Both the position numbers and the translations under genes were made by a program. Shown here in pieces: positions 1-35,402 of a stretch of 46,345 nucleotides of DNA (positions are counted from its first letter, which is position 1; each line of letters begins with the position of its first letter). The DNA is from Desulfuromonas sp. GTDB lineage: Bacteria > Desulfobacterota > Desulfuromonadia > Desulfuromonadales > Desulfuromonadaceae. The DNA lies in assembly GCA_021162745.1 (NCBI GenBank), contig JAGGYC010000067.1, positions 1-46,345 of the forward strand, written 5' to 3'. The notes under the pieces are model-generated. The model was given only the letters and a program-made list of their open reading frames with translations. It was not told where the DNA came from and ran no database searches.

Positions 1-947
1 ACATCATCACCATCGATGCCGATGCCCAGCACTACCCTGAAGACCTGCCGCTCTTTTTTCAGGCCATCGCCGAGCAACCGCTGGCGATCCATGTCGGTTA
101 TCGTGATTTTAGTGTTAAGGGTATCCCGCGCAGTTCGATCTTTGGTCGCCATTTCTCCAATTTCTGGTTGCGGGTTCAGACCGGTTGTCGGATTGGTGAT
201 GCCCAGAGTGGTTATCGGGCCTATCCGTTAGCACTCCTCGATCATTTACAGTTTACCGATTGCCGCTACTCCTTTGAGGTTGAAGTGTTGGTCAAGGCCT
301 GTTGGGCAGGGGTGCCGTTGTCGGATGTGTCGATTCAGGTCTATTATGCGCCCGGCAGCGAGCGGATCTCCCATTTTGACAAGGTGCGTGACAATGTGCG
401 GCTGTCATGGTTAAACACTCGTCTCTGTTTGCGTTCGATAGCGCCATGGCCCCATAAACGCTTGATCAAGGGGGGACTCAAGGGGGATTGGCCGGTGGTG
501 ACATGGCGTCAGCCGTTGCAGTCGTTGCGCAATCTGTTGGCTCTCAATGTCACGCCGCGGCGTTTGGCCTGGACCATGGCGTTTGGCGTGTTTCTCGGTA
601 CCTTGCCGTTGATTGCCTGTCATACCGTGGTTACCCTGTTTGTGGCTGGTTTTCTCGGCTTAAACCGCTATCTGGCCGTTGCTGCCGGTAATCTGTGCAT
701 GCCGCCGCTGGTGCCGGCACTGTGTATCGAAGTGGGCTACTATCTGCGCCATGGCCAGTGGCTGACGGATATTAATGTTCAAACCCTAGGGGCGCAGTGT
801 GTGCAACGGGTATGGGAATGGTTTCTTGGTTCATTATTAGTCGGGCCGCTGTTGGCTGCCGTCGGCGGTGTCGTGGTTTATCTGGTCGCCAGCAGCTTGG
901 TTGGAGAACAGCAGACCTCTGCAAATTCTATCGATGGGCGCTCGTGA
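1..947 (+). CDS. Glycosyltransferase family 2 with C-terminal DUF2062 membrane domain (5' end outside window)
   Basis: The reading frame is open from base 3, so the start lies upstream of the window. The visible N-terminal part carries the GT-A sugar-nucleotide motif ITIDADAQHYPEDLP (DxD region). It is followed by GDAQSGYRAYP, as in dolichol-phosphate-mannose-synthase-like GT2 enzymes. After about residue 165 of the visible part comes a DUF2062 domain with two or three hydrophobic segments (motif NVTPRRLAWTMAFGVFLGT). Such fusions probably transfer a sugar to a lipid at the inner membrane face. The stop overlaps the next start by one base (TGATG), so the two are co-translated. Together with the following acyltransferase, ACP and ketosynthases it resembles the lipid-tailoring genes of aryl-polyene-type clusters. 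The substrate is unknown. Confidence 0.85.
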   Translation, partial: IITIDADAQHYPEDLPLFFQAIAEQPLAIHVGYRDFSVKGIPRSSIFGRHFSNFWLRVQTGCRIGDAQSGYRAYPLALLDHLQFTDCRYSFEVEVLVKACWAGVPLSDVSIQVYYAPGSERISHFDKVRDNVRLSWLNTRLCLRSIAPWPHKRLIKGGLKGDWPVVTWRQPLQSLRNLLALNVTPRRLAWTMAFGVFLGTLPLIACHTVVTLFVAGFLGLNRYLAVAAGNLCMPPLVPALCIEVGYYLRHGQWLTDINVQTLGAQCVQRVWEWFLGSLLVGPLLAAVGGVVVYLVASSLVGEQQTSANSIDGRS

Positions 948-1852
948 TGACGACACAGACAACACAATCAGCAGCGCAAAAGCCGCTGGGTACAAGCTTT
1001 GGTTATCAGGCCTTCTATCTGCTGATTCGTGGCGGTGGTCGGCGTGCCGCTTACGCATTGCTCTATTTTGTTGTCGGTTTCTATGTGTTGTGTCGGCCCC
1101 AGGTGCGCGAAAGCTGTCGCCCTTATGTTCAGCACCGTTTTCCCGCGAGCGGAGCCGATGCCCTGTGGTGGCACAGCTACCGTATGGTGCTGGCCTTTGG
1201 CAAGGTGCTGGTGGATCGCGCCGTGGTGGGGATGCTCGGTCCCGACCGCTACCGGGTGACTCTCGAAGGTCGTGAGCAATTGCTGCAGATTCGTAACCAG
1301 CGTCAGGGGATGATTCTGATGATGTCCCATGTCGGCTGCTGGCAGGTCGCCATGTCGGCGCTGAACTTTTTAGAGGAACCGGTGCATATGCTGATGCACC
1401 ATGACAGCGACAGCCTGGAACGCCACTACTACGAATACGCTGAACAGGAGTGCCCCTATCGGACCATCGATCCACGCGGTTATCTCGGTGGGGCGTTGGA
1501 GATGCTGGGTGTGCTCAAACAGGGGCAGATTCTGGCGGTGATGGGGGATCGATTACCGCCGCAGGAACGTAACAGTGTTACCGTCGATTTTCTCGGCGGT
1601 AAGGTCGCGATACCGTTCAGCCCCTTTCAGCTCGCTTCGGCAACGGGGGCACCGGTGGTGGTGATGTTGACCCGTAAATGCAGCGCTGATCACTACGAAA
1701 TGGTGCTTGCCGACGTGATCGAGGTGCCGTCGGGACTCGGGCGTAAGGCTGAGAGCTTTGTCCCCTATGCGCAACGTTATGCTGATATTCTGGCGGGGTA
1801 TTGCCGGGATAATCCGTATCAGTTTTTTAATTTTTTTGATATGTGGCAGTAA
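947..1852 (+). CDS. LpxL/HtrB-family lysophospholipid-type acyltransferase
   Basis: A protein of 301 aa. The ATG at 947 shares one base with the upstream stop, and no better Shine-Dalgarno site is visible. An N-terminal hydrophobic segment (AAYALLYFVVGFYVLC) anchors it in the inner membrane. The motif MMSHVGCWQVAMSAL is the HxxxxD/E-like active-site block of the lipid A acyltransferase family; here the usual HxGNWE reads HVGCWQ, so the acidic partner is replaced by Gln. A second block, AVMGDRLPP, matches the family's Gly-Asp-Arg motif. In aryl-polyene and related clusters, homologues attach an acyl chain to a lipid or sugar acceptor. Here it is coupled to a GT2 enzyme and should act on the same product. 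The Gln at the acidic position makes activity less certain. Confidence 0.8.
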   Translation: MTTQTTQSAAQKPLGTSFGYQAFYLLIRGGGRRAAYALLYFVVGFYVLCRPQVRESCRPYVQHRFPASGADALWWHSYRMVLAFGKVLVDRAVVGMLGPDRYRVTLEGREQLLQIRNQRQGMILMMSHVGCWQVAMSALNFLEEPVHMLMHHDSDSLERHYYEYAEQECPYRTIDPRGYLGGALEMLGVLKQGQILAVMGDRLPPQERNSVTVDFLGGKVAIPFSPFQLASATGAPVVVMLTRKCSADHYEMVLADVIEVPSGLGRKAESFVPYAQRYADILAGYCRDNPYQFFNFFDMWQ

Positions 1853-1853
1853 T

Positions 1854-2054
1854 TTAGAGCAGTGCTTTAAGAAAATACATAAAGAACATTGTCAGGAGAA
1901 ACTTTGTATCCAGACCATCCAGCAATTGTTTGATGTAGATGAATTAGTTAGAGAGTGCTTAGCTTGTTCGCTAAAGTACGATGTTTTATTGGCAATAGAA
2001 GAAAGCAGATACGTAACCGTTGAATTGCTTTTATCGTGTTTGGAGCTTTCATGA
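1854..2054 (+). pseudogene. Possible 3' remnant of a gene formerly upstream of the Mrr-like gene
   Basis: After the acyltransferase stop, a frame without ATG or GTG starts runs open to a TGA at 2052-2054. That stop overlaps the ATG of the next gene as ATGA, the pattern of translational coupling. The translated tail (for example IQTIQQLFDVDELVRECLA) looks protein-like and is more AT-rich than the acyltransferase. It has no usable start except inside the acyltransferase. I read it as the truncated end of a gene that once preceded the restriction gene. Chance openness of about 200 bases cannot be excluded. Confidence 0.25.
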
Positions 2055-3217
2055 CCAAAAAAAACTACATTGTACGCATGCCGTTATTTCCAATTTACAG
2101 TGAGGCTAAAGCCCTCATAGATATTTGGAATGGTATTCCTCGTTCTACTGTTAGCGGTATGATCAAGGCCATTGTCGAGCAGACTGGCACACCGCAAAAT
2201 CCCGTCGATTGGACCGACCCCGACACGTGGATACCGGAAAGGCTGAAAGGTGATTATGCAAAGCTGGCTGCTGAGGTTTGGCTGCAAAGTGGTGGTACGG
2301 TCAATCCGCGTCATACCTATGGTTCGTATCTCTTTATCAACGCTTACGAACTGCTGACGGAAGACCACGCCGGACTTTACCGGCTATCTAATAAAGGACA
2401 GGGGTTCATTGACGGCCATAAAAACGTGATCATGGAGATTGATGAACTGGAAGGCATTCCGCAACTTCTCGGTATACTGGCTCCTAAGACCACCGCTAAG
2501 CGCGTCGATCTGCTGGATGAATGGAGCAGTTTTCTCGATGATAATTCTAAATTCAATTCGGCAAGTACATTCAAGGATACTCTGCGGCGACGTATGATGA
2601 ATTTGATAGATCGTGGTTTTGTCAGCAGGGAAGGAAATATCTATACCATCACCGAGAAGGGGCGTGAATATGCTTCGGGGTTTTCTCAGGTTGTCAATGA
2701 CCCGAAGCAAGAGGTTGCGCGGGTTGTCAGTGAATTCAACAATGCGCAACGAAAAGTTCTGCGTGACCAGCTTAGCATCATGAATCCGTATCGCTTTGAA
2801 CACTTGGCAAAAGAACTGCTCGAGGCGATGGAGTACCAAGACGTTGAAGTTACCAAAGCCAGCGGCGATAAAGGGGTGGATGTAATCGCTACGGCGCAAT
2901 TCGGCATCACTACCGTCAAGGAAGTTGTGCAGGTGAAAAGACACCAAGGAAATATTGGTCGCACCGTGCTTGATCAATTGCGTGGTGTATTGCCGTTGCA
3001 TGGTGCAATTCGTGGAACCCTGATCACCTTGGGAAAATTCAGCAAAGGGTGTAAAAAAGTTGCTGTTTTCCCGGGCGCTGCACCAATCAGCCTGATCGAC
3101 GGTGACAAGCTGATTGACCTGTTGATTGAAAATAAAATTGGCATCAAAGAACAGAAAGAGATCTTGATTCAGGTTGATGAAGCTTATTTTGCTGATGAGG
3201 AAATATCTGAAAGCTGA
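2051..3217 (+). CDS. Mrr-like type IV restriction endonuclease
   Basis: A protein of 388 aa. ATG 2051 is preceded by GGAG with 5-base spacing. The N-terminal two thirds look like winged-helix DNA-binding modules (about residues 1-100 and 150-220, ending ...YTITEKGREYASGF). The C-terminal domain, about residues 245-365, is the Mrr catalytic fold. It shows the PD-(D/E)XK residues in GDKGVDV (Asp277) and QVKR (Gln294, Lys296), so the nuclease core looks intact. Mrr proteins cleave methylated foreign DNA. It lies just downstream of a biosynthetic acyltransferase and next to two decayed genes typical of restriction loci, which marks a defence module inserted into the biosynthetic operon. The exact modification recognised cannot be told. 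Confidence 0.85.
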   Translation: MTKKNYIVRMPLFPIYSEAKALIDIWNGIPRSTVSGMIKAIVEQTGTPQNPVDWTDPDTWIPERLKGDYAKLAAEVWLQSGGTVNPRHTYGSYLFINAYELLTEDHAGLYRLSNKGQGFIDGHKNVIMEIDELEGIPQLLGILAPKTTAKRVDLLDEWSSFLDDNSKFNSASTFKDTLRRRMMNLIDRGFVSREGNIYTITEKGREYASGFSQVVNDPKQEVARVVSEFNNAQRKVLRDQLSIMNPYRFEHLAKELLEAMEYQDVEVTKASGDKGVDVIATAQFGITTVKEVVQVKRHQGNIGRTVLDQLRGVLPLHGAIRGTLITLGKFSKGCKKVAVFPGAAPISLIDGDKLIDLLIENKIGIKEQKEILIQVDEAYFADEEISES

Positions 3218-3249
3218 AGGGCATTGGGGATAGGGGCTCTAGCTCTTGA

Positions 3250-3530
3250 GGAATCTGTAAGTGGTTTATGCTCGGGTTCATTCTTGAAGCAGTCACAACG
3301 ACCCCCCCCAAGTCGCCCCTCAAGTGACCCTCCAAGTCAGACAGCTGCTGGAGGTTATGCAGGGTGAAATGAGCCGCGAAGCGCTGCAAACTGCTTTTGA
3401 TTTGCAGGATTGTAAATCGTTTCGCGAGCGTTATCTGAAACCGGTCCTGGCGGACGGGTTGATAGAGATGACCATTCCCGACAAGCCAAACAGCGGCTTG
3501 CAGAAATATCGTCTGACAGATAAGGGGTGA
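3250..3530 (+). pseudogene. C-terminal remnant of a Fic/AlbA_2-type protein with winged helix
   Basis: The last 68 codons (3324-3530) encode a winged-helix tail, FRERYLKPVLADGLIEMTIP followed by DKPNSGLQKYRLTDKG. I recognise this from the ends of Fic-family and AlbA_2/RecG-like ATP-binding proteins. Upstream, another frame reads FILEAVTTTP and then joins QVAPQVTLQV across a run of eight C at 3302-3309. Six C would keep one continuous frame through the usual PQVxPQV linker, so the tract marks a frameshift. No further 5' part remains, because a stop in that frame lies at 3247-3249. The whole is a dead fragment of a gene normally found beside type I restriction genes. Confidence 0.6.
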
Positions 3531-3580
3531 CAAGGGTTGGAGCGGGGGCCGCTGGTTACATATGGCGAGATGAAGACTCT

Positions 3581-4741
3581 ATGAGAGTATCCGAGAAAAA
3601 CATGAAAGGCAAAACAATGGATATGCTTATTAACTCAAAGGGGAATTCACTGTTTGACCGTGTCGCTTCTATTCTTGAGCAGGCGCGAGGCAATGTCGTC
3701 CGTTCGATTAATTCCAATATGGTCCTGGCCTACTGGTTGATCGGGTGGGAAATTGTACAGGAGTTGCAGGGTGGTGAAGACCGGGCGGAGTATGGCAAGA
3801 AGGTTCTGGAAGCTCTTTCAGGACAACTGAATATAACGTATGGTTCCGGCTATTCTGTTCCAAATTTGCAAAATTTCAGAAAGTTCTACCAAATATATCG
3901 TGACCGCATCAAGATTCAGTACCCGGCGGGTACTATTTCTAAAAAATTACCTTCTGATATGCCGAGCGACGAATTGACGCAAGGCTTTTCCCCATTGCTC
4001 TCCTGGTCGCATTACCGAGCGCTGATGCGAATCAAAGATGAAAAAGCCCGTTTTTTCTATGAATTGGAAGCGGTTGAATGTGGTTGGAGTAAAGCCCAAT
4101 TAGAGCGCCAGATTCAGTCGTCTTACTATGACCGCATTTTAGACAATCGCGGGGAGGAAGGGGTCATTGCCATCAAGCGGGAACGCCTGCCCAGAGAACC
4201 TCTTTTGGCAGAAACCATTCTGAAATCCCCTTATGTGCTGGAGTTCCTCGGGCTTCCTGATTCAGTAAGTCTGCATGAAAGTACGCTTGAGCAGTCGATC
4301 ATCGACAATCTGCAAGCCTTTTTACTTGAACTCGGCAAGGGGTTTTCTTTTGTCGCCCGGCAAAAGCATATCCGCTTTGACCATGAAGATTTCTATATCG
4401 ATCTTGTCTTCTATAACTTCATGCTCAAGTGCTTCCTGCTGATTGATTTAAAAATCGGCAAGCTGACCCACCGGGATGTCGGGTAAATGGACGGCTATGT
4501 CCGCCTGTTCGAAGATCGTTTCAAGGTTCCGGGCGATAATCCGACTATTGGCTTGATCCTCTGTTTGGACAAGAGTGAAGCCGTTGCAAAATACTCGGTT
4601 TTAAATGAGAATAAACAGATCTTTGCCTCGAAATACTTACAATTCCTGCCCAGCGAACAGGAGTTGAAACGGGAAATTGAAAAAGAGCGCAAAATGATTG
4701 AAGCAGCGATTAAAGAAAAAACCGAAGGTGGAAACTCATAA
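3581..4741 (+). pseudogene. DUF1016 (YhcG-type) PD-(D/E)XK nuclease, interrupted by an in-frame TAA
   Basis: The N-terminal DUF1016 domain starts near NSLFDRVASILEQARGNVV. The C-terminal nuclease domain includes FSFVARQKHIRFDHEDFYID and LIDLKIGKLTHRDVG. A TAA at 4484-4486 then stops the frame, and translation would resume in the same frame with MDGYVRLFEDRFKVPGDNP to a stop at 4741. In family members I recall a Gln at this position (GQMD), so a single CAA-to-TAA change explains it. The stop removes the last 84 residues, including part of the nuclease core. ATGs at 3581, 3602 and 3617 are all possible starts; none has a strong Shine-Dalgarno site. The family travels with type I restriction loci. 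It is probably non-functional unless the stop is read through. Confidence 0.75.
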
Positions 4742-4808
4742 ATTACAACTTTTCGGTAAAAGCGGACGGAGTAAGGGCCGGGAACGCTGTTTACAAATCT
4801 GAAGTTCA

Positions 4809-4818
4809 GGGGGGGGGG
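4809..4818 (+). repeat. G10 homopolymer tract
   Basis: Ten consecutive G follow the DUF1016 remnant, about 170 bases before the first ACP gene. Tracts of this length slip easily during replication. No gene is seen across it. The rest of 4742-4985 shows no clear RNA gene or confident promoter. Confidence 0.6.
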
Positions 4819-4985
4819 ATGTCTCCCGCATAGTTGATTTCTACAATGTTGATATGGTGAATTTGAGTCGGGTAATAGTGGAAGAAGGATAGTGTTGCCG
4901 CCTCTCATTTGGTATAACCCTTGCGATAAACAATCGTGAAAATTTGATGAATGAAGCAGATTTTTTTAATAGGAGAACAAAACGT

Positions 4986-5237
4986 ATGACAACCAAGGAA
5001 AAACTCAAGCAGATTCTGGTGGAAGATCTCAATCTTGAAGATATTACCCCCGAAGAGATTGGCGATGACGAGCCGTTGTTTGGTGAGGGGCTGGGTTTGG
5101 ATTCCCTCGATGCCGTTGAGCTGGTGGTGCTGGTACAGAAGCACTTTGGCGTTGAGATCAAAGATATGGAAGAGGGGCGTCCTGCTCTGCAATCGGTCAC
5201 TACTCTGGCGAACTTTATCGATAACAACCGGGAGTAA
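4986..5237 (+). CDS. Acyl carrier protein (first of two in the locus)
   Basis: A protein of 83 aa. The ATG at 4986 follows AGGAG (4971-4975) with 10-base spacing; an in-frame ATG at 4944 would add a non-homologous leader. The motif GLGLDSLDAVELVVLVQKHF carries the phosphopantetheine attachment serine (Ser40). The acidic four-helix carrier-protein pattern is intact. It lies 5 bases before the ketosynthase and is presumably loaded by a phosphopantetheinyl transferase outside the window. It resembles the ACPs of aryl-polyene or other type II clusters more than the housekeeping AcpP, because a partner KS/CLF pair follows and fabD, fabG and fabF are absent. Confidence 0.9.
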   Translation: MTTKEKLKQILVEDLNLEDITPEEIGDDEPLFGEGLGLDSLDAVELVVLVQKHFGVEIKDMEEGRPALQSVTTLANFIDNNRE

Positions 5238-5242
5238 CCCTG

Positions 5243-6445
5243 ATGCCAACACGCGTTCCGGTCACCGGGATCGGTTGCTTATGTGCTGCAGGCAACACGC
5301 TGGATGAGGCGGTAGCCTCCATGTTGTCCGGCCAGCGCCATGGTAAACCGCCAGCTCGCTTTACCACCACTCATGTCGATCGCTTTCCCGTGTTTTGCAT
5401 TGAGGATGAGTTTGAACAGGTTTCCGACGTCGAGATGCTGCGCACCACGCAGCTCGGTCTGGCCGCAGCCGTGCAGGCCGTTCGCCAGTCGGGCTGGGAT
5501 CTTGATCAGCTCAGGGAACTGCGGGTCGGTGTCTGTATGGGCACAACCGTCGGCAGCGCCATGAACAACGAGCGCTTTTACTCTGAATACCGTAATGGCC
5601 ATACGCCTGATATGGGGCCGATCAACTGTTTTCTTAACAGTAATCCGGCGGCGGCCATCAGTCGTCATTTTGGTTTGAACGGGCCGTGCCAGACCATCGT
5701 CAACGCCTGTTCGTCAGGTACCGATGCGATCGGCTTGGCGTCGTCATGGTTGCAGGCCGGTTTGTGTGATGTGGTTCTTGCCGGTGGTGCCGATGAGCTG
5801 TGTCGCACCACCTATAATGGTTTTGCCTCGCTGCAGATCAGTGCCCCGGTGTTGAGTCGTCCCTTTGACGAGACGCGCTGTGGGCTTAATCTGGGTGAAG
5901 GCGCGGCGGTTTTGGTGTTGGAATCGCAACGGGTGCAGCAACAACGGCAGATGCGTGCTAAGGGTTATGTGATCGGCTATGTGCTCGGATATGGCAGTGG
6001 TACTGACGGTTGGCATCTTACCGCACCGCATCCCGATGGACGGGGCCTGAAACAGGCGTTGGCCGAGGCTTTTACCACCAGCGGTGTTGAAAAAGAACAG
6101 CTGGCGTTTATCAATTGTCACGGCACCGGCACCCGCGATAATGATCGGGTCGAGAGTAAGGTACTTGGCGAGGTGTTGGCGCAGATCCCATTTCATTCAA
6201 CCAAAGGCTACACCGGTCATACGTTAGGGGCTGCGGGTGCCATCGAAGCCGCCTTTACCCTGGCTTTCTTGCGGGATGGCATCATCCCGGCCAGTGCCGG
6301 TTTCAGTCAGATGGACCCGGAACTGTCGGTCATTCCGGTGACGGAACCGACAACGATTGTCAAAGAGTTTGCCCTGTCGGAGTCGTTGGCCTTTGGTGGC
6401 AATAATGCGGCCCTTATCCTAGCCAGAGGGGAGGCAGGCGTATGA
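5243..6445 (+). CDS. Beta-ketoacyl-ACP synthase (KAS II/FabF-like), catalytic subunit
   Basis: A protein of 400 aa, the usual length for a KAS II-type enzyme. The catalytic triad is complete: Cys156 in VNACSSGTDAIG, His293 in NCHGTGTRDND and His326 in GYTGHTLGAAG. It should perform decarboxylative Claisen condensation of malonyl-ACP with an acyl-ACP. The C-terminal FGGNNAAL block is also present. It overlaps the next ketosynthase homologue by four bases (ATGA), the coupling seen in KS-CLF pairs of type II polyketide and aryl-polyene systems. The starter unit and chain length cannot be read from the sequence. The ketoreductase, dehydratase and ligase partners are not in the window. Confidence 0.9.
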   Translation: MPTRVPVTGIGCLCAAGNTLDEAVASMLSGQRHGKPPARFTTTHVDRFPVFCIEDEFEQVSDVEMLRTTQLGLAAAVQAVRQSGWDLDQLRELRVGVCMGTTVGSAMNNERFYSEYRNGHTPDMGPINCFLNSNPAAAISRHFGLNGPCQTIVNACSSGTDAIGLASSWLQAGLCDVVLAGGADELCRTTYNGFASLQISAPVLSRPFDETRCGLNLGEGAAVLVLESQRVQQQRQMRAKGYVIGYVLGYGSGTDGWHLTAPHPDGRGLKQALAEAFTTSGVEKEQLAFINCHGTGTRDNDRVESKVLGEVLAQIPFHSTKGYTGHTLGAAGAIEAAFTLAFLRDGIIPASAGFSQMDPELSVIPVTEPTTIVKEFALSESLAFGGNNAALILARGEAGV

Positions 6446-7539
6446 ATCGCTTAACTTGTCCCGTCGCGATTCAGGGCCTGGGCTGCGTCGGTGGTTTCGG
6501 CTGCGGCATTGATGATTTTTGTCACGCCCTGGTAGCCGGGAGCTGTGCCCCGACCCTCAGCAGTGAACAGCATGCCGACGGTTTGGCCTATGGGCCCGCT
6601 TATCTGGCGCAAACGGACACGCTGACCGACTTTGTCGCCAAGCGTTCGTTGCGCCGTCTTGATCATTACGCGCGGATGGCATTGCTCGGCGGTTGCCTGG
6701 CTCTCGAAGATGCCGGGATCGCTGGTGAACAGAGAGAAAAGGTGGGGGTGATGGTCGCCAGTGGTTATGGTGCCTCAACCACCACCTTCAGTTTTCTCGA
6801 TTCCGTGCTCGATGACGGCGATCATTGCGCCTCACCGACCAATTTTTCCAATTCGGTTCACAATGTCGCTGCCGCCTATCTGTCCATGCAGTTGGGGATG
6901 CTGGGGCCGAATCTGACCATCAGTCAGTTTGAGATGTCGATGAGTTCGGCGCTATGCAATGCCGTGTGCTGGTTGCAGCAGGGGCGCGTGGATACGGTGC
7001 TGGTCGGCGGTGTTGACGAGCATTGTCCGGTGCTCAACTATTGTTATCAGCGTTATTTCGCTACCGTGGACGGTGGCCAGACGAGTGCGAAGATTGAGCC
7101 GTTTGTTTTTGACCGCCAGACGGCCATTCCCGGCGAAGGGGCTGGTTTTCTGGTATTGAGTGCTGATCCGGATAAGGCACGCTATGGGATGATCGACGGC
7201 GTTGATGTCGGGCATATGCGTCAGCCGACGTGGTCGGCTGACGACCTGTTGCTGGTTGGCGCCGATGGCCATTGCAATTGTGGTCAGTGGTACGAATCGA
7301 TCGCTGACCATCATCAAAATCATCGACTAGCCAGCTGTACCCCGGTGTATGGTAGCCAGCCGACGGGACAGGCGTTTGATCTGATCGCGGCCGCATTGAT
7401 GATTAATGATCAGCGATTATATGGCCATACAACCGGCCATACAACCATGGCCGACAGCGACACCATTGACAGTGTCACCAGTCTTAAGGTCGCCGCCGAT
7501 GGTCAGTATGGGGCGGTACATATGGTAAAGGGGATTTAG
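6442..7539 (+). CDS. Ketosynthase-like protein without catalytic residues (chain-length-factor-like)
   Basis: A protein of 365 aa with the thiolase fold of ketosynthases (PVAIQGLGCVGGFG at the start, FVFDRQTAIPGEGAGFLVLS in the middle). Where the KS has its active-site Cys, this protein has FEMSMSSALCNA (residues 163-174), with Met or Ser in place of Cys. The two catalytic His positions also align to other residues (GADGHCNC and YGSQPTGQA). The changes match chain-length factors, which dimerise with the KS and shape the product tunnel. The ATGA overlap with the KS supports a 1:1 partner. A degenerate FabB/F relative with another role is the alternative. Confidence 0.8.
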   Translation: MNRLTCPVAIQGLGCVGGFGCGIDDFCHALVAGSCAPTLSSEQHADGLAYGPAYLAQTDTLTDFVAKRSLRRLDHYARMALLGGCLALEDAGIAGEQREKVGVMVASGYGASTTTFSFLDSVLDDGDHCASPTNFSNSVHNVAAAYLSMQLGMLGPNLTISQFEMSMSSALCNAVCWLQQGRVDTVLVGGVDEHCPVLNYCYQRYFATVDGGQTSAKIEPFVFDRQTAIPGEGAGFLVLSADPDKARYGMIDGVDVGHMRQPTWSADDLLLVGADGHCNCGQWYESIADHHQNHRLASCTPVYGSQPTGQAFDLIAAALMINDQRLYGHTTGHTTMADSDTIDSVTSLKVAADGQYGAVHMVKGI

Positions 7540-7544
7540 GGGCG

Positions 7545-7976
7545 ATGCGCAAGCAGGATGTACCTCAGGATGAAGGTGTTCTCGATGATGAACGGGTGGT
7601 CAGTTACGCCCTCGACAGCGATGGCCAATACTGCCTGACCTCCAGTGTCGGCTGGGATCCGGTCAACTGTGCCAACCGGCTGGCTTGGCAGGATATTCAA
7701 TTGCAACTCGATGGAGTGCGCCGGCAGATTGAGCGTGGTGAGCTGAGTGTTTTGGCCTATTATATGACCCGCGCCCAGATGGATGTCGCCTTGTTGGCCA
7801 GCTACTCGGGGGTCCCCCGCTGGCGGGTACGCCGCCATCTTAAGCCGAAGGTGTTCAGTAAACTTGATGCCAAGGTGCAGCACTGTTATGCCCAGTTGTT
7901 TCGTGTTACCACCGCACAGCTATCCCAGTTGCCTGCTGAAGATGCGTTACCCATGGCCGAGGAGATCCCCTCATGA
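7545..7976 (+). CDS. Unrecognised 143-aa protein with a possible helix-turn-helix
   Basis: I do not recognise this family. The ATG at 7545 lies five bases after the chain-length-factor stop with a GGGG just upstream. The gene overlaps the BtrH-like gene by four bases (ATGA), so it is part of the same translational unit. There is no signal peptide or membrane segment. The middle, TRAQMDVALLASYSGVPRWR followed by VRRHLKPKVFSKLD, resembles a helix-turn-helix. The segment before it (WQDIQLQLDGVRRQIERGEL) is amphipathic. It might be a regulator or a small scaffold for the KS/ACP/BtrH enzymes. The operon position favours a pathway role. Confidence 0.75.
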   Translation: MRKQDVPQDEGVLDDERVVSYALDSDGQYCLTSSVGWDPVNCANRLAWQDIQLQLDGVRRQIERGELSVLAYYMTRAQMDVALLASYSGVPRWRVRRHLKPKVFSKLDAKVQHCYAQLFRVTTAQLSQLPAEDALPMAEEIPS

Positions 7977-9016
7977 TGATTGATTTTCCTCACCGTCAAT
8001 CGGCCCACTGCGAAAGCGGGGCGGTCTCCAGCTTGCTCACCCATGCCGGTCTGCCGATCTCTGAAGCGATGGCCTTTGGTTTGGGGGGCGGCTTGTTTTT
8101 CGGTTATGTGCCCTTCGTCAAACTCAACGGTTTTCCCCTCACCACCTACCGTTGCCGTCCCGGCGGGATTTTTGCCCGGGTGACCAAAGGGCTACAGTGT
8201 CGGGTTATCCAGAAAAAGTATCGCCAGCCGCAGCAGGCGATGGCTGAACTCGATGCTCTGCTGGAGCAGGGGATTGCCGTCGGCTTGCAGACTAGTGTCT
8301 TCTGGCTGCCATATATCCCGCCGGCGCTGCGGTTTCATTTTAATGCCCACAATCTGATTGTCGTCGGCAAGGAGGGCAGCCGCTACCGGATCAGCGATCC
8401 GGTGATGCCCGAGCTGGTGTGGTGCGAGGCCGAGGATCTGGCCCATGCCCGTTTTGCCCAGGGTGCCTTGGCTCCCAAAGGTCGCTGCTATTATCTGGAG
8501 GGGGAACCGCAGATTACCGATCTGCGTCAGCCGACACTGCGCGGCATACAGATTGTCTGTTGCGACATGTTGGCGCCGGTGCCGATCGGTGGCATCCGTG
8601 GCATGCGTTATATGGCGCGTAGCATGCGCCACTGGGAACAGAAATACGGCAAGCGCAAGTCGATCTCCTGTCTGGCACAGATGATTCGCATGCAGGAAGA
8701 GATCGGTACCGGTGGCGCCGGTTTCCGGTTTATCTACGCCGCATTTCTACAGGAGGCTGCTGGGCTGTTCAATAATGCTGAATTGAAGGAAATGGCCGAC
8801 CGTCTAACCCTGATCGGCGATGGCTGGCGCGAGGTGGCCGTTGAAGCCGCCCGCTGTTGCAAAGGGCGCGATGAAAACGTTACTCTGGACAGTTTGGCCG
8901 ACAAAATTCTGCTGCGCGCCGATGAAGAGGAACCTTTCTTCTGTGAGTTGCGTCAGCTGAGCAAAACATTGCAGCGCCAACTCAAAGATGGCCAGCCGAA
9001 GGGGAAAGCATCCTGA
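7973..9016 (+). CDS. BtrH-type acyltransferase (BtrH N-terminal and DUF4872-like regions)
   Basis: A protein of 347 aa. The N-terminus, HCESGAVSSLLTHAGLPISE, is the hallmark of BtrH N-terminal domains, papain-like enzymes that move an acyl group from a carrier protein to an amine. The candidate nucleophile is Cys13, with His126 (NAHNLIVVG) and Asp142 (ISDPV) as partners. The C-terminal part (about 200-347) fits the DUF4872 region. BtrH itself transfers the side chain from ACP BtrI to ribostamycin in butirosin synthesis. Here the donor would be one of the two ACPs. It overlaps the 143-aa gene (ATGA) and the ABC ATPase (TGATG), so acyl transfer is likely linked to export. The acceptor is unknown. 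Confidence 0.75.
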   Translation: MMIDFPHRQSAHCESGAVSSLLTHAGLPISEAMAFGLGGGLFFGYVPFVKLNGFPLTTYRCRPGGIFARVTKGLQCRVIQKKYRQPQQAMAELDALLEQGIAVGLQTSVFWLPYIPPALRFHFNAHNLIVVGKEGSRYRISDPVMPELVWCEAEDLAHARFAQGALAPKGRCYYLEGEPQITDLRQPTLRGIQIVCCDMLAPVPIGGIRGMRYMARSMRHWEQKYGKRKSISCLAQMIRMQEEIGTGGAGFRFIYAAFLQEAAGLFNNAELKEMADRLTLIGDGWREVAVEAARCCKGRDENVTLDSLADKILLRADEEEPFFCELRQLSKTLQRQLKDGQPKGKAS

Positions 9017-9765
9017 TGGCTGAAGCCATTCTCACGGCAACAGCCTTGCAGAAATGTTACTGCGGCCAGTCCTCTCCGGCGGTGAACGGGCTTGATTTGA
9101 TGCTTGGCAAGGGGGAGTTGTTGGCGTTGTTGGGACCGAATGGTGCCGGTAAGACCACCACCCTGTCGCTGTTGTCAACGCTGATGCGCCCCGATAGCGG
9201 CACACTGACCATTGACGGTGTCGATGCCCTCAAACATGCTGAGCAGGTGCGTCATCTGATGGGGGTGGTACCGCAGGATCTGGCGCTCTATCCAACCCTG
9301 ACCCTGCATGAAAACCTTAACTTCTGGGGGCGGTTGTATGGCCTGAGGGGTCGCAGCCTCCAGCAGCGGGTGGATGAATGTATTCAATTTACGGCATTGG
9401 AAGGGGTGTTGAGCCACCGTATCGATACTTTCTCCGGTGGTATGAAGCGGCGTGCCAATCTGGCCGCCGGTATTCTCCATCAGCCGCAGATACTGTTTCT
9501 GGATGAGCCGACCGTCGGTATTGACGCCCAGTCGCGCCATCTGATTCTGACCAACCTGCGTCAGCTTAATGCTCAGGGGATGAGCATGATCTATACCAGT
9601 CATTATATGGAAGAGGTCAGCCAACTCTGTCAACGGCTGGTGGTGATGGATGAGGGCGTGTGGGTGGCTGAGGGCAGTGTTGAACAGCTATTGGCTGAGC
9701 ATCCTGACTGTGATCATCTTGAAGAGTTGTTCCTGAAGCTGACCGGCAAGCAGTTGAGGGACTAA
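9016..9765 (+). CDS. ABC transporter ATP-binding protein
   Basis: A protein of 249 aa. Walker A is GPNGAGKTTT (residues 40-49), the Q-loop GVVPQDLALYP, the signature FSGGMKRR and Walker B ILFLDEPTVGID, followed by the H-loop YTSHYMEEV. All catalytic residues are present. The type fits CcmA/DrrA-like ATPases that pair with ABC-2 permeases to export lipids, drugs or polyketides. Its start overlaps the BtrH-like stop by one base. The matching permease gene begins 534 bases downstream because a long repeat lies between them, so the natural operon has been split. Confidence 0.9.
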   Translation: MAEAILTATALQKCYCGQSSPAVNGLDLMLGKGELLALLGPNGAGKTTTLSLLSTLMRPDSGTLTIDGVDALKHAEQVRHLMGVVPQDLALYPTLTLHENLNFWGRLYGLRGRSLQQRVDECIQFTALEGVLSHRIDTFSGGMKRRANLAAGILHQPQILFLDEPTVGIDAQSRHLILTNLRQLNAQGMSMIYTSHYMEEVSQLCQRLVVMDEGVWVAEGSVEQLLAEHPDCDHLEELFLKLTGKQLRD

Positions 9766-9795
9766 ATGGTGATAGACTGCCAAAACAATGGTGTT

Positions 9796-10230
9796 GCACC
9801 AACAGGGTTCTGCATAACGGTGCCACGGAAAAAGTAGAGAGCGATAAACAATCAAGCTACTCAACGCCGTAGCTCATAAAAAGAGAAAACTCAGTCGACC
9901 TAAAGGGCGACTTGCCGCCAAGGTGAAGCATAACGGAAAGCGACTCATCGTAAGTGGGTCTGCGACCCCTAGAGGGCAGGTTTTAAAAGCTATTTCTTTG
10001 CTCACTTTCTTTGCAAAGCCCCAAAGAAAGTGTGTCGGCTGCGGGACGAAACCCGCGAACTTGATCTTGGTTTTAAAGGGTTTCGGGTCAGCAGTTGTCG
10101 GGTTACGCTTCGCTAACCCGACCTACAAAATTACCACCGAGGAGCCCGAAAAAACTCGCTGCGCTCAAACAGTACCGGGCAAAGCACTCTCGTTGACGCT
10201 CATTACGTTCAGCGGCGGCAAACGGGGTAA
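9796..10230 (+). repeat. Long dispersed repeat, copy 1, with several hairpins
   Basis: This copy shares long identical blocks with 14796-15150. The first 43 bases (9796-9838) equal 14796-14838, and 9908-9948 equals 14910-14950; further blocks surround the hairpin. An 11-bp perfect stem (10003-10013 with 10022-10032, loop 8) is followed by GCGGG/CCCGC and the hairpin GTCGGGTTA...TAACCCGAC at 10097-10122. No gene is supported here: the open frame running through it to 10303 has a composition dictated by the repeat. It separates the ABC ATPase from the permease and fills the gap 9766-10299. Confidence 0.8.
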
Positions 10231-10299
10231 CTTGTTACTCAACAAGTATAAGTTGGACAAAATAATCTATTCATCTAATTTTTTTTACGAGACTATTGA

Positions 10300-11637
10300 A
10301 TGATATATCAAGTATGGGCGGTTATCCTTAAAGAACTCCAGTTGCTGCGGCGTGATCGTGGCGGCCTGGCGGTGCTGTTTGTTATGCCGGTGGCGTTAGT
10401 GTTGATTGTTTGTCTGGTGCAGGACAACATTCTTAAAACATCCGGTGCCGGTCATGTCGATGTGTTATTGCTCGATGGTGATCAGGGGGAGTTTTCGCAG
10501 CGCCTGCACCAGCAACTGCTGGCTCAAGGATCGTTCCGTATTAACCACATCACCGCTGGCGGCGACTATCAACAGGCCCGCCGCCAGGTGGATGATGGCG
10601 ATTACCAGATTGGGATCTATCTGACACCAGGGTTCTCCGAACAACTGCATGAGCAGGTTTATCGTCGCGTGCGTCATGCTCTTTCGGGGCAGGATCCATC
10701 GGAGCTGGATCAAACACTACAGGCAGGGAAACCCGCATTGCAGGTCGAATATTTTTTTGATCCGGCCGTCCAGGGTGGACTGCAGGCCGGAATTGCCGGT
10801 CTGTTGCAGCAATTGACGGCTGCTGAAACATTGAAGATTCAGATGGAGGCCTTCCGGGCCTTGCTGCCGGCGTATGTTGAACGTCATGTCAGTCAGCAGC
10901 TGGGTTCGATGTTTGCTCAAGCTTTGGCACAGAATCCCCTTGAAATTAATCTGCCTGATGAGGGTGAACCGCTGGTTGAGGTGAGCAGGGCGACCAGCAG
11001 TGGGGCGGACTTTGTCATGCCGACCTCCGTTCAACATAATGTTCCGGCCTGGTCGATGTTCGGCATCTTCTTTATTATTTTACCGTTGTCTGCGGTGTTG
11101 TTGCAGGAACGGGCTCAAGGGGTCTTTCTCCGTCTGCAACTGGTTCCGGGACATGCTGTCGGCTTGGTTGTCGGTCGAGTATTGGCCTATCTGTTGTTGT
11201 GTATGGTGCAGTTTGGCCTGATGTTGTTGGTTGGCTACTATCTATTGCCCCAATTGGGTACTGATACATTGAACTTTCACGGTCAGATTCCGGCTTTGTT
11301 CATTATTGCCCTGTGTGCCGGGTTAACGGCCTGTGGCTTTGGTATGCTGCTCGGTGTCTTTGCTCGCAGTGAGCAACAGGCCAGTTTAACCGCTGCCGTG
11401 ACGATTGTTATCGCCGCCGCTTTGGGTGGCATCATGGTTCCTGTCTATCTGATGCCATCGTTGATGCAGAAAATTAGTATTTTATCCCCCCTTGGTTGGG
11501 GATTGGATGCTTTCCAAATAGTGTTGCTGCGCGGGGGATCATTGACCGACACTTTGCCGCAGTTGTCGCAATTGCTTGGTTGTTCAGCTCTGTGTTTTGT
11601 CTTGGCATGGCGTGGTTTGAAACGCCGGCGTTGTTAA
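10300..11637 (+). CDS. ABC-2 type transporter permease
   Basis: A protein of 445 aa. It has an N-terminal membrane segment (LAVLFVMPVALVLIVCLV), a large extracytoplasmic domain of about 210 residues and then at least five membrane segments, starting near WSMFGIFFIILPLSAVLL. This is the layout of ABC2_membrane_3 permeases (YhhJ/YbhR/DrrB-like). The conserved LPLSAVLLQERAQGVFLRL stretch is typical. It should pair with the upstream ATPase to export the product of the ACP/KS/BtrH pathway. No clear Shine-Dalgarno precedes ATG 10300. The repeat has replaced the natural junction, so expression relative to the ATPase is uncertain. Confidence 0.85.
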   Translation: MIYQVWAVILKELQLLRRDRGGLAVLFVMPVALVLIVCLVQDNILKTSGAGHVDVLLLDGDQGEFSQRLHQQLLAQGSFRINHITAGGDYQQARRQVDDGDYQIGIYLTPGFSEQLHEQVYRRVRHALSGQDPSELDQTLQAGKPALQVEYFFDPAVQGGLQAGIAGLLQQLTAAETLKIQMEAFRALLPAYVERHVSQQLGSMFAQALAQNPLEINLPDEGEPLVEVSRATSSGADFVMPTSVQHNVPAWSMFGIFFIILPLSAVLLQERAQGVFLRLQLVPGHAVGLVVGRVLAYLLLCMVQFGLMLLVGYYLLPQLGTDTLNFHGQIPALFIIALCAGLTACGFGMLLGVFARSEQQASLTAAVTIVIAAALGGIMVPVYLMPSLMQKISILSPLGWGLDAFQIVLLRGGSLTDTLPQLSQLLGCSALCFVLAWRGLKRRRC

Positions 11638-11675
11638 ATTAAACCTGATTCAGTGAGTACAATGGGAGTGGTGTT

Positions 11676-11942
11676 ATGAGTAGGGAAGAGCTGTATCGAG
11701 AATTACAAAATTTGATCATTGAAGCTTGCCATATTCAGGAAGATTTTCCTGAATTAATCGATGCCGATATCTCACTGATCGGCCCGGATTCACCCCTTGG
11801 TCTGGATTCGCTCGATGCCGTAGAAATTGTTGTCGCGGTGCAGCGCCATTTTGATGTGCGGATTGGCGGTGAAGAATCGGGTCGCCAAGCGTTAGATACT
11901 CTGCGTGCGTTGGCAGAATTTGTAGAATCTCATCGTAAATAG
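11676..11942 (+). CDS. Acyl carrier protein (second in the locus)
   Basis: A protein of 88 aa with GGGAG (11664-11668) before ATG 11676. The phosphopantetheine serine is Ser45 in GLDSLDAVEIVVAVQRHFDV. Its core is closely similar to the first ACP, and it has a longer, more divergent first helix (YRELQNLIIEACHIQEDFPE). Paired ACPs are common in aryl-polyene and type II clusters, where one carries the starter and the other the growing chain; that split is not proven here. It ends the locus: about 260 bases later a new promoter drives a phosphate transporter. Confidence 0.9.
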   Translation: MSREELYRELQNLIIEACHIQEDFPELIDADISLIGPDSPLGLDSLDAVEIVVAVQRHFDVRIGGEESGRQALDTLRALAEFVESHRK

Positions 11943-13889: not shown

Positions 13890-14848
13890 TGCCTGCTGTT
13901 ATTGATGTTGGTTCGCACACCGCTCGGCTACTGATTGCCGAGATGCTTGATGGCGAACTGAATGTCATCCACTATGAACATGTCATTACCCACCTGGGTG
14001 AAGGGGCCTCGCTTGCGTATGGATTAACATCGCAAGCGATGGTTCGCACCCTGTCTGTTTTGGAATCCTTTGCCCGTACGATACGAGACCTCGACCACAC
14101 ATCGGTTCGTGTGATCGGTACACAAGTGTTGCGTGTCGCTGTAAACCATCAGTAATTTGCTGAACAATTGTTGCTACGCACCGGTTTAATCTTGGAAATT
14201 GTCGATGGTCAGCAAGAAGCCTTACTGATGGCGACCGGCGTATTGGCAGCCCTTTACCCGCCTCTACAGCGTTGTGTGATATTCGATATCGGTGGTGGCA
14301 GTACTGAGCTTGTCTGTGTGGAGAATGGTGTGTTACGTTTCCAGCGCAGTTGGGCTGTGGGTGTTGTTCGGCTGCTGGACGAGCCGGATCCCGTTTCTGG
14401 CGTGTCCGCCATGCTCAGTGAACTCAAACAGCAACTTCAACACTGTCAATTGTGGCCGCAGGTCTGCAGCGACGACTGGACCTTGGTGGGTATGGCTGGA
14501 ACGGTGACCATTCTTGCTGCTGCCCAGCTGGAGATGACACATTACCAACCACAGCGGATTAACAATGTTCATCTGAATCGGCAGCAACTTGATCGTCTTG
14601 ACCGCAAATTATCCAAATTGAGTATCGCTGAACGGGAGGCTCTGCCGGGGATTGAGACTGGTCGCGGGGCGACCATTGTTCCAGGTGTGCAACTGGTTTT
14701 GCGGCTGCTCGAATTCTTTGACCACGATGAGCTGGTGGTGTGTGATGCCGGTTTGTTACAGGGTGTGTTTCATAGTACGTGGGGCGAACAACGCAGCACC
14801 AACAGGGTTCTGCATAACGGTGCCACGGAAAAAGTAGATACCGACTAA
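13889..14848 (+). pseudogene. Ppx/GppA exopolyphosphatase-like gene, interrupted by TAA; 3' end within a repeat
   Basis: The GTG at 13889 overlaps the upstream stop (TAGTG). The ASKHA phosphatase motifs are present: AVIDVGSHTARLLIAE at the start and VIFDIGGGSTELVCVENG later, and the acidic GQQEA site is intact. A TAA at 14153-14155, just after VRVIGTQVLRVAVNHQ, splits the frame; translation continues without a shift as FAEQLLLRTGLILEIVDG. The family has a continuous chain here, so a nonsense mutation is likely (CAA to TAA would fit). The C-terminal 17 or so codons, from 14796, lie inside the long repeat also found at 9796. Intact, the enzyme would degrade polyphosphate or pppGpp. The result is probably inactive. 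Confidence 0.75.
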
Positions 14849-15150
14849 ACAACTAAATTATTCAACGCCTCAGTCATGAAAAACAATCAAATCAGTCGGT
14901 CGTAAGATCCGACTTGCCGCCAAGGTGAAGCATAACGGAAAGCGACTCATTGCCGGTGGATTTGCGACCTCCAGAGGGCCGGGTTTTAAGGCCATTTTTT
15001 GCGTACTTTTTTGTGGTCCGTCAAAAAAGTACGTCGGCTGCGGGACGAACCCCGCGACCTTGATCTTGGTTTTAAAGGGTTTCGGGTCAGCAGTTGTCGG
15101 GTAACCATCCCCGTTGACGCTCATTACGTTCGGCGGCGACAAACGGGGGG
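14796..15150 (+). repeat. Long dispersed repeat, copy 2, with hairpin
   Basis: This is the second copy of the element at 9796. The first 43 bases are identical and further identical blocks follow. Its main hairpin has a 12-bp perfect stem (15002-15013 with 15022-15033) and again an 8-base loop. The stem sequence differs from copy 1 on both arms, so pairing is kept. The repeat begins inside the Ppx-like gene and supplies its stop codon. No gene is seen in 14849-15295; the rest of the gap holds the iorA promoter. Confidence 0.8.
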
Positions 15151-17817: not shown

Positions 17818-19119
17818 ATGATCTGGAACGAGGATTTTGAAACATTGCCACGCGAGGCTATCGAGGCTCTGCAGTTTAAACGACTGAAACAAACCCTTGA
17901 TCGGGTTTACGCGACAGTCCCTTTCTATCAGCAGAGTTTCAAAAAAGCGGGGATAACGCCAGCGGATATCCGTTCATTGAGCGATCTTCAAAAATTGCCG
18001 TTTACCCTTAAGCAGGATATGCGCGACAACTATCCATATGGCTTGTTTGCTGTTCCACTCGATCAGATTGTCCGTATTCATGCCTCGTCGGGGACGACGG
18101 GTAAGCCGACGGTTGTCGGTTACACCAAGCGCGATATTGACACTTGGTCGGAATTGATGGCCCGTTCATTTGCGGCTGCCGGTGCCAGCCATGGCGATGT
18201 GATCCACAACTCTTACGGCTATGGTCTGTTTACTGGCGGGCTCGGTGCTCATTATGGTGCCGAACGTCTCGGTGCCTCGGTAATCCCGATGTCGGGCGGT
18301 AATACCAAAAAACAGATTATGATCATGCAGGACTTCGGTTCAACCGTGATCACCTGTACGCCATCTTACAGTCTCTATCTGGCCGAGGCACTGACTGAAG
18401 AGGGTGTTGACGTCAATGATTTGAAACTGCGGGTTGGTATCCTCGGTGCCGAGCCGTGGAGTGAGGCGATGCGTACGGAGATCGAAGCCAAGCTTGGAAT
18501 CAAGGCTATCGATATCTATGGTTTATCCGAGATTATGGGGCCCGGTGTCGGCATTGAATGTATCGAAGCACAGAACGGTCTGCATATCTGGGAAGATCAT
18601 TTTATTCCTGAAATCATCAACCCCGAAACCGGCGAAGTGCTGCCGCACGGTGAAAAAGGGGAGTTGGTGATCACCACCATCACCAAAGAGGGGATACCGA
18701 TGATCCGTTACCGGACGCGCGACATCACCCGTATCCTGCCCGAACCTTGTATTTGTGGCCGTACTCATGTTCGCCTTGAACGCCTCAGTGGTCGCAGTGA
18801 TGACATGTTGATTATCCGTGGCGTCAATGTGTTCCCGTCACAGATCGAAAGCGTCCTGGTCAAGATCAAAGGCGTAGAACCGCATTATATGCTGATTGTT
18901 GATCGGGAAGGGACTCTTGATACCCTCGAAGTTCAGGTTGAGGTGAATGAGCAGACCTTCTCCGACGAAATCAAGGTGCTACAGGACCTGAGTTCGATGA
19001 TCCGCAAGGAGATCAAGGATCTGCTTGGGATCACCTGTAATGTTCGTCTGGTGGAACCGAAGACCATTGCCCGTAGTGAAGGCAAAGCACAGCGGGTTAT
19101 TGATCGCCGTCCGAAGTAG
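17818..19119 (+). CDS. paaK: Phenylacetate-CoA ligase (first copy)
   Basis: A protein of 433 aa, the usual PaaK length; AGAGGTG lies eight bases before ATG 17818. The AMP-binding loop is [14 protein letters not shown]. The adenylate-forming core continues with [15 protein letters not shown] and [11 protein letters not shown], and the C-terminal lid has [20 protein letters not shown]. It activates phenylacetate or another arylacetate with ATP and CoA. In this position it would interconvert the acids and CoA thioesters made by IorAB. It is flanked on both sides by related hairpin elements and followed by an ACT-domain protein. A second copy lies downstream. Confidence 0.95.
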
Positions 19120-19761: not shown

Positions 19762-21087
19762 ATGATCCAGAATGAAAATAAAACGACGAATATTTGGGAT
19801 CGCGATAACGAATGCATGTCGCGTGACGGTCTTGAAACATTGCAATTGGAACGTTTGCAGCAGACCTTGAAACGGGTCAATGAGCATGTTCCCTGTTATC
19901 AGAATAAATTTTCTGCCCTGGGCCTTTCTGTTGCCGATGTGCAATCCCTCGAAGATCTGCGCAAGTTGCCGTTTACCACCAAGGAGGATTTGCGCCTCAA
20001 TTATCCGTATGGCATGTTTGCCGTACCGATGCGGGACGTGGTGCGTATTCACTCTTCATCCGGCACCACCGGCAAGCCGACGGTTGTCGGATATACCCGC
20101 AATGACCTGAAAATCTGGACCCAGCTGGCAGCCCGTTTTATGACCGCTGCCGGTGTGACCCCTGATGATATTGTCCATATCGCCTTTGGTTATGGGCTGT
20201 TCACCGGTGCCTTCGGACTCCATTACGGTGCTGAAGAGATCGGCGCCTCGGTAATTCCTATTTCGAGCGGCAACACCGATAAACAGATCATGATCATGCA
20301 GGACTATCAGTCCAGTGCGCTGGTTTGTACCCCGTCCTATGCCATGACTCTGGCTGACCGGATGGAGAAGCAGGGGATTGATCCGCACCGTTTATCCTTG
20401 AAGGTCGGGTTGTTCGGTGGTGAGCCGTGGAGTGAAGAGATGCGGCGTGAGATTGAGCAACGCCTCGGCATCATTGCAACGGATAATTACGGCTTGTCGG
20501 AAGTGATGGGGCCGGGTGTGGCCGGCGAATGTCAGCACCAGTGCGGCATGCATATCTTTGAAGATCACTTTATCGCCGAGATCATTGATCCTGAAACGGG
20601 AGAAGTCTTGCCGCGAGGATCGATCGGAGAGTTGGTGCTGACCAGTATTACCAAGGAAGCCTTTCCTATTATCCGCTATCGTACCCGAGATATTACGCGA
20701 CTGGATTATGAACCCTGCGCCTGTGGCCGTACCCATGTGCGGATGATGAAAACCATGGGCCGTTCCGACGACATGTTGATCATCAAGGGGGTCAATGTAT
20801 TCCCGACCCAGATCGAAGAGGTGTTGTTCCAGGTTGAAGGTTGTGAGCCCCACTATCAACTAGTGGTTGAGCGTGACGGCACCATGGATACCCTTGAGGT
20901 GCAGGTTGAAGTGAATGAGCGGATCTTCTTTGACGAAATGAAAAAACAACGCGCTTTTGTCAATATGCTGGAGAAACGTCTGTTGTCGATATTGGGAGTT
21001 GGTGCCCGGGTTAAACTGGTTGAACCTTCAAGTATTACCCGTCATGAAGGCAAAGCGAAACGGGTCATCGACAAGCGCAACTCGTAA
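19762..21087 (+). CDS. paaK: Phenylacetate-CoA ligase (second copy)
   Basis: A protein of 441 aa. The ATG at 19762 aligns its [18 protein letters not shown] with the first copy's [18 protein letters not shown], so I prefer it although no Shine-Dalgarno site is visible; earlier in-frame codons lie inside the ACT gene. The same motifs are intact: [47 protein letters not shown] and [20 protein letters not shown]. The copies are clearly paralogous. They may differ in substrate (for example phenylacetate and indole- or 4-hydroxyphenylacetate) or direction; sequence alone does not decide. The gene ends the aryl-CoA locus. Confidence 0.95.
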
Positions 21088-35279: not shown

Positions 35280-35402
35280 GGAACAGTCAACTCGGCTTTA
35301 AGTCCGTGAACTGTTGGGAAACAATTGTCTCCCCCTTCAGATCCGGCAGTGACGATGCTGTTTTGGTGTTGTCGCTTATTTTAAACATGCAAGGAGTACA
35401 AG

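Follow-up and report, generated by a model that had tools for sequence, protein, structure and literature searches.

A probable flexirubin-type gene cluster in a Desulfuromonas genome, with a B12-binding radical-SAM protein in the place of DarA

The DNA considered here (the window) is the whole 46,345-nucleotide contig C94 of the 2.9-Mb draft genome of a Desulfuromonas sp., and its first 11,942 bases carry a run of biosynthetic genes that an earlier sequence-only reading had taken for a single locus related to the aryl-polyene clusters. All of the genes named in that reading are present, and the relationship to the aryl-polyene clusters stands. We think it probable that the locus is the junction between the polyene and dialkylresorcinol (DAR) halves of an aryl-polyene-dialkylresorcinol cluster of the flexirubin type, one in which DarA has been replaced by a cobalamin (B12)-binding radical-SAM protein that we call RSx. 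The cluster as such is of a known kind; its new element is the replacement of DarA by RSx, which lies outside positions 1-11942. The nearest relatives of the locus are in Desulfuromonadaceae-type bacteria, whose lifestyle we take to be anaerobic.

DarB-type enzymes make 4-carboxy-2,5-dialkylcyclohexane-1,3-diones (PMC5515871), DarA has been termed the DAR-aromatase (PMC3949708), and P. chlororaphis needs DarA for its resorcinol HPR (PMC6403133); DAR synthesis in a genome that lacks DarA therefore calls for a substitute. The DarB of this genome (C145:12057-13196) scores 565 bits against the StlD/DarB subfamily model, above the cut-off of 450 and thus within that subfamily, and 468 bits against the narrower DarB model, for which the cut-off is 550. 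Only 9 bases upstream of it, on the same strand, is the RSx gene (C145:10750-12048), with B12-binding and radical-SAM domains. The search of the genome gave no match to DarA anywhere, and RSx sits in DarA's place.

For DarB, DarA and RSx the counts come from 395 genomes of the phylum, an extension of the 297 genomes in which DarH and DarB were counted. DarB is present in 33 of the 395, and directly upstream of it there is RSx in 19 genomes and DarA in 14 (13 full-length copies and, in G046, a fragment at a contig edge); none of the 33 has both and none has neither. The RSx scores are bimodal: 19 genomes reach at least 620 bits, the next only 324, and in all 19 the gene is directly upstream of DarB. 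Some of the RSx genomes have weak flavodoxin-like matches elsewhere, of at most 84 bits. The two arrangements can occur within one genus (G357 with DarA, G376 with RSx). The RSx-DarB pair was also found in five further loci (L054, L057, L064, L078 and L109) and in eight further genomes, including the four whose clusters are closest to that of the window. In all, about thirty relatives thus have RSx where DarA would be expected. At one other locus (L102) DarB adjoins neither DarA nor RSx, and at L175 the start of DarB lies near a contig edge.

In the DarB tree, the sequences linked to RSx fall into a single group (SH-aLRT 92) nested within the DarA-linked ones, so that a single swap with later spread is probable. 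Judging from the pairwise distances, which are correlated (Mantel r 0.76, 31 pairs, 0/2000 permutations), RSx and DarB have co-diverged.

Replacement of the aromatase is most likely what RSx does. We would give even chances to the more specific proposal that it is an oxygen-independent, B12-binding radical-SAM aromatase, unrelated to the flavodoxin-like DarA, that would convert the cyclohexanedione into the dialkylresorcinol; comparable swaps are those of HemN for HemF and of BchE for AcsF. A rather unlikely alternative, but the strongest that we see, is that RSx is a tailoring B12-dependent C-methylase of the HpnR kind, acting on the cyclohexanedione or on an acyl substrate, so that there would be no aromatisation and the ring that receives the polyene as an ester would be non-aromatic or methylated. 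The best curated match of RSx is indeed the C-methylase HpnR (184 bits, cut-off 650), with BchE at 113 bits and far below its cut-off, and the nearest solved chains include tryptophan C2-methyltransferase and TokK. However, also among those chains are the apramycin oxidoreductase (6fd2) and OxsB, neither of which is known as a simple methylase, and a tailoring role fits poorly with a gene that occupies the DarA position and never occurs alongside DarA.

Within the window, the DAR side of the junction consists of the following genes:

7545-7976, + strand: DarG family protein, 143 amino acids (NF053536, DarG_fam, 134.8 bits, cut-off 70)
7973-9016, + strand: DarH, a BtrH-related predicted acyltransferase (NF053550, 458 bits, cut-off 300; BtrH_N and DUF4872 also passed)
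9016-9765, + strand: ABC transporter ATPase (Pfam ABC_tran, 110.7 bits)
10300-11637, + strand: ABC-2 type permease (PF12698, 98.4 bits)
11676-11942, + strand: ACP2, the acyl carrier protein (ACP) of the DarGH-ABC module (NCBIfam ACP families; PRK09184 46.7 bits, below cut-off; position conserved)

With DarG and DarH over their cut-offs, next to an ABC transporter and an ACP in conserved order, this is recognizably the dar half of such a cluster. The BtrH-type and ABC exporter genes had been considered foreign to the aryl-polyene set, but in flexirubin and arcuflavin clusters, as in F. johnsoniae and Azoarcus, both are standard in the DAR half; in the dar operon of Azoarcus, darE is annotated as a "BtrH-like peptidase" and darF and darI as the ABC transporter (PMC3949708). 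Residues C13, H126 and D142 of DarH are invariant in alignment A1. Its AlphaFold model (pLDDT 91.5) has a papain-like fold and matches CtaG (Z 23.9), CcbD (Z 21.6) and AziU3 (Z 24) over about 290-310 residues, the range being Z 20-24; these papain-fold enzymes have the fold in common with DarH, but only 11-15% identity. The positions mutated in CtaG (C11A, H128A and D144N) match the three DarH residues in type and order. The fold and these residues support a role for DarH in moving an acyl group off a carrier protein. By analogy with flexirubin chemistry, the acceptor would be a hydroxyl of the DAR rather than the amine that had been suggested, and since a resorcinol hydroxyl is the likelier acceptor, an aryl-polyene-DAR ester is a likelier product than an acylated glycolipid. 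The DarG model (pLDDT 85) has a C-terminal helical region that is weakly helix-turn-helix-like, and all of its Foldseek matches have E > 0.03, being likewise helix-turn-helix-like and weak. One cluster, L044:6924-11431 (G229), contains three consecutive DarG-DarH pairs.

The polyene side of the junction precedes these genes:

1-947, + strand, frame from base 3: C-terminal part of a GT2-DUF2062 protein (Pfam DUF2062, 48.1 bits, over cut-off)
926-1852, + strand: LpxL-like acyltransferase of the aryl-polyene cluster type (PF03279, Lip_A_acyltrans, 43.4 bits, over cut-off)
4944-5237, + strand: ACP1, of NF006617/PRK09184 type (74.7 bits, cut-off 70; Pfam cut-off also passed)
5243-6445, + strand: ketosynthase (KS) KS2, with Cys-His-His intact (NACSSG, CHGTGT, GHTLG)
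6442-7539, + strand: CLF2, a chain-length-factor (CLF)-like dead ketosynthase without the Cys and both His

The F. johnsoniae counterpart of CLF2 similarly has neither the Cys nor the two His. The LpxL-like gene is syntenic in L050, L051, L034, L039 and L109. The contig edge truncates the first gene, and the N-terminal part of its product is encoded on contig C70, the final 127 bases of which (C70:13364-13490) are identical to the first 127 of the window; an exact overlap of this kind is the signature of k-mer assembly and places C70 directly upstream. Contig C74 in turn meets C70 in a tandem array of 10-bp units (98% over 115 bases), a join that is probable but less certain than the first. 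This array, of GCTTGATAGT, is seen at L003:1-116 and L026:2-116, upstream of the ammonia-lyase gene and at the assembly break.

The reductase, dehydratase and ligase genes that had been expected upstream of base 1 are on these two contigs. C70 encodes an aromatic ammonia-lyase (Lyase_aromatic, 555 bits; FlxA model 477 against a cut-off of 700) as well as two hotdog dehydratases, a thioesterase, LolA and MMPL. Also on C70 are a second KS, whose partner is truncated, three genes for B12 radical-SAM proteins and the beginning of the GT2 gene. C74 encodes a ketoreductase (KR), a FlxY-like ligase (481 bits, cut-off 520), a PlsC-like acyltransferase, two KS and an FAD enzyme that resembles phytoene desaturase (95 bits with the CrtD model, far under the cut-off of 550). 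The KS with its dead KS/CLF partner, the ACP, the KR and the dehydratase of an aryl-polyene half are thus all present. The three radical-SAM genes are adjacent (L003:9018-13121) and are kept beside GT2-LpxL-ACP1-KS2 in several relatives; one of them, RS2, is a member of TIGR04072, a family associated with ladderanes (687 bits, cut-off 360). We also considered RS2 as the substitute for DarA and rejected it: in the Bacteroidales loci L093, L107 and L125 a ladderane-type B12 radical-SAM gene (RS2) does fill the slot of the F. johnsoniae DarA-DarB, but these Bacteroidales have DarA-DarB elsewhere (L170-L172). The same three loci have a second DarG-DarH-ACP on the opposite strand.

Synteny was compared with other genomes of the phylum and with 80 loci from the genome collection. 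The order KS-CLF-DarG-DarH-ABC-ABC2-ACP recurs in both Desulfobacterota-type genomes and Bacteroidota, so that a chance neighbourhood of unrelated genes, to which the nuclease island breaking the gene run in this genome might seem to point, can be dismissed; recurrent synteny is the test that the sequence-only reading had proposed. DarG-DarH-ABC-ABC2-ACP often adjoins KS2-CLF2, and several Desulfobacterota-type genomes have it next to RS1-RS2-RS3-GT2-LpxL-ACP1. Since the DarGH-ABC-ACP module occurs in some relatives (e.g. L031, L033 and L035) without an adjoining KS2-CLF2, its tightest partner is DarB and not the KS pair. Among the 297 genomes, 19 have both DarH and DarB, 2 only DarH, 2 only DarB and 274 neither (Fisher P 1e-25, without correction for kinship); DarH is present in G067 and G130, for which no DarB was found in the sample. 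This tight co-occurrence, together with the many relatives in which DarB-RSx adjoins the DarGH-ABC-ACP module, makes it improbable that the cluster yields only an aryl polyene or a Desulfotalea-related polyunsaturated lipid, with DarGH-ABC loading the polyene onto a glycerolipid or sugar and RSx-DarB serving an unrelated pathway. That proposal draws on the position of RSx-DarB on another contig here, on the ladderane-associated family of RS2 and on the similar clusters and polyunsaturated hydrocarbons reported for D. psychrophila (Rattray et al. 2009).

What the analysis establishes is the gene content and its synteny, the residues of the active sites, the predicted fold of DarH, the lack of DarA and the linkage of RSx to DarB. 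For the flexirubin-type cluster that we favor, all catalytic steps and the product are inferred, and they follow the general roles of the flexirubin genes. The ammonia-lyase would supply an aryl-propenoate, to be activated by the FlxY-like ligase and extended on ACP to an aryl polyene by the KS/CLF pairs, KR and hotdog dehydratases. DarB would join two acyl chains into a cyclohexanedione, with RSx standing in for the aromatase DarA. DarH, through its putative Cys-His-Asp site, would then move the ACP-bound polyene onto a DAR hydroxyl, and the ABC transporter may export or flip the product. LolA, MMPL and the GT2-DUF2062 and LpxL-like proteins may act in lipidation or outer-membrane delivery.

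Flexirubin clusters (flx/dar; Flavobacterium johnsoniae and Chitinophaga pinensis) have in common with this one DarG-DarH-ABC-ABC2, ACP-KS-CLF, KR, ammonia-lyase, dehydratases, thioesterase, LolA and the LpxL-like gene. In the flexirubin species F. johnsoniae (L082) a single cluster contains HAL, KR, KS3, ACP, LpxL, DarA, DarB, dehydratases, DarG, DarH, ABC, ABC2, TE, KS1, CLF1, ACP, KS2, CLF2 and LolA. However, flexirubin clusters have DarA-DarB in or near the cluster, whereas here there is no DarA, the RSx-DarB pair lies on a different contig and the cluster has three extra B12 radical-SAM genes. The arcuflavin (xanthomonadin-DAR) clusters, as in Azoarcus sp. BH72, share the BtrH-like darE, the ABC ATPase darF, the permease darI, an ACP and a KS in one dar operon (PMC3949708), but they combine a XanB2-type starter with darA in place of the ammonia-lyase and RSx. 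The ladderane-type fatty-acid clusters of Kuenenia and Desulfotalea (Rattray 2009, which also notes Geobacter and Pelobacter) share the TIGR04072 radical-SAM gene, several FabF paralogues, a phenylacetate-CoA-ligase-like gene and perhaps the phytoene-desaturase-like gene; that paper makes no mention of aryl compounds, whereas here an aryl-polyene/DAR pathway is indicated by the ammonia-lyase, DarGH-ABC and DarB. No relevant paper came from a literature search for Geobacter or Desulfuromonas together with aryl polyenes, and one for flexirubin, radical SAM and anaerobic together found no paper in the open literature, most subscription journals lying outside the search.

Several observations weigh against a flexirubin-type cluster with RSx in place of DarA. 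In this genome RSx-DarB is on a separate contig (C145) from the cluster. The DarB tree shows the swap as a single event, so the mutual exclusion of RSx and DarA does not amount to 33 independent observations. The resemblance of RSx to HpnR and BchE is too low for sequence to separate methylation from oxidation. DarA is kept elsewhere in this largely anaerobic phylum (the 14 sampled genomes and Desulfurivibrio L112), so that anoxia by itself does not make the swap necessary and a purely oxygen-based argument is weakened. Finally, the FlxA- and FlxY-type scores are under the equivalog cut-offs, which suggests treating these proteins as homologues.

The remaining features of the locus lie between the pathway genes:

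2036-4741, + strand: nuclease island, outside the pathway, between the LpxL-like gene and ACP1
2036-3217, + strand: Mrr-type endonuclease (Mrr_cat, 98.6 bits)
3527-4741, + strand: gene that we take to be DUF1016-like, split by an in-frame stop at 4484-4486
9796-10106, + strand: dispersed intergenic repeat of about 300 bp between the ABC ATPase and permease genes (82.8% copy at 14796-15105; 85% copy on C70)

The island is not present at the equivalent junction in L051, L034, L039 or L109; in L050 the junction (L050:4753-6483) carries an AAA-ATPase/HNH-like gene and in L051 nothing. With nuclease-type genes that differ among relatives, it is possibly an insertion hot spot for defence-like genes. 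The open reading frame at 9923-10303, which overlies the dispersed repeat, is probably not a gene. The repeat is also seen at L003:8644-8921, L026:6574-6724 and L135:8375-8520; its copies thus lie between genes at several places on the pathway contigs, and the longer ones have 76-85% identity. Elsewhere the window contains a 1-kb duplication (17983-18974 and 19954-20942, 67% identity) and an L20-Deltaproteobacteria ribosomal protein leader at 35302-35396 (Rfam RF03126, 47.5 bits).

If the flexirubin-type assignment is correct, it would place flexirubin-type biosynthesis in Desulfuromonadales-type bacteria, give the seemingly odd BtrH and ABC genes a role in the pathway, and connect aryl-polyene/DAR chemistry with clusters that were once likened to ladderane genes. 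It also points to one testable enzyme swap, that of a B12 radical-SAM protein for DarA, which suggests another route to the same ring.

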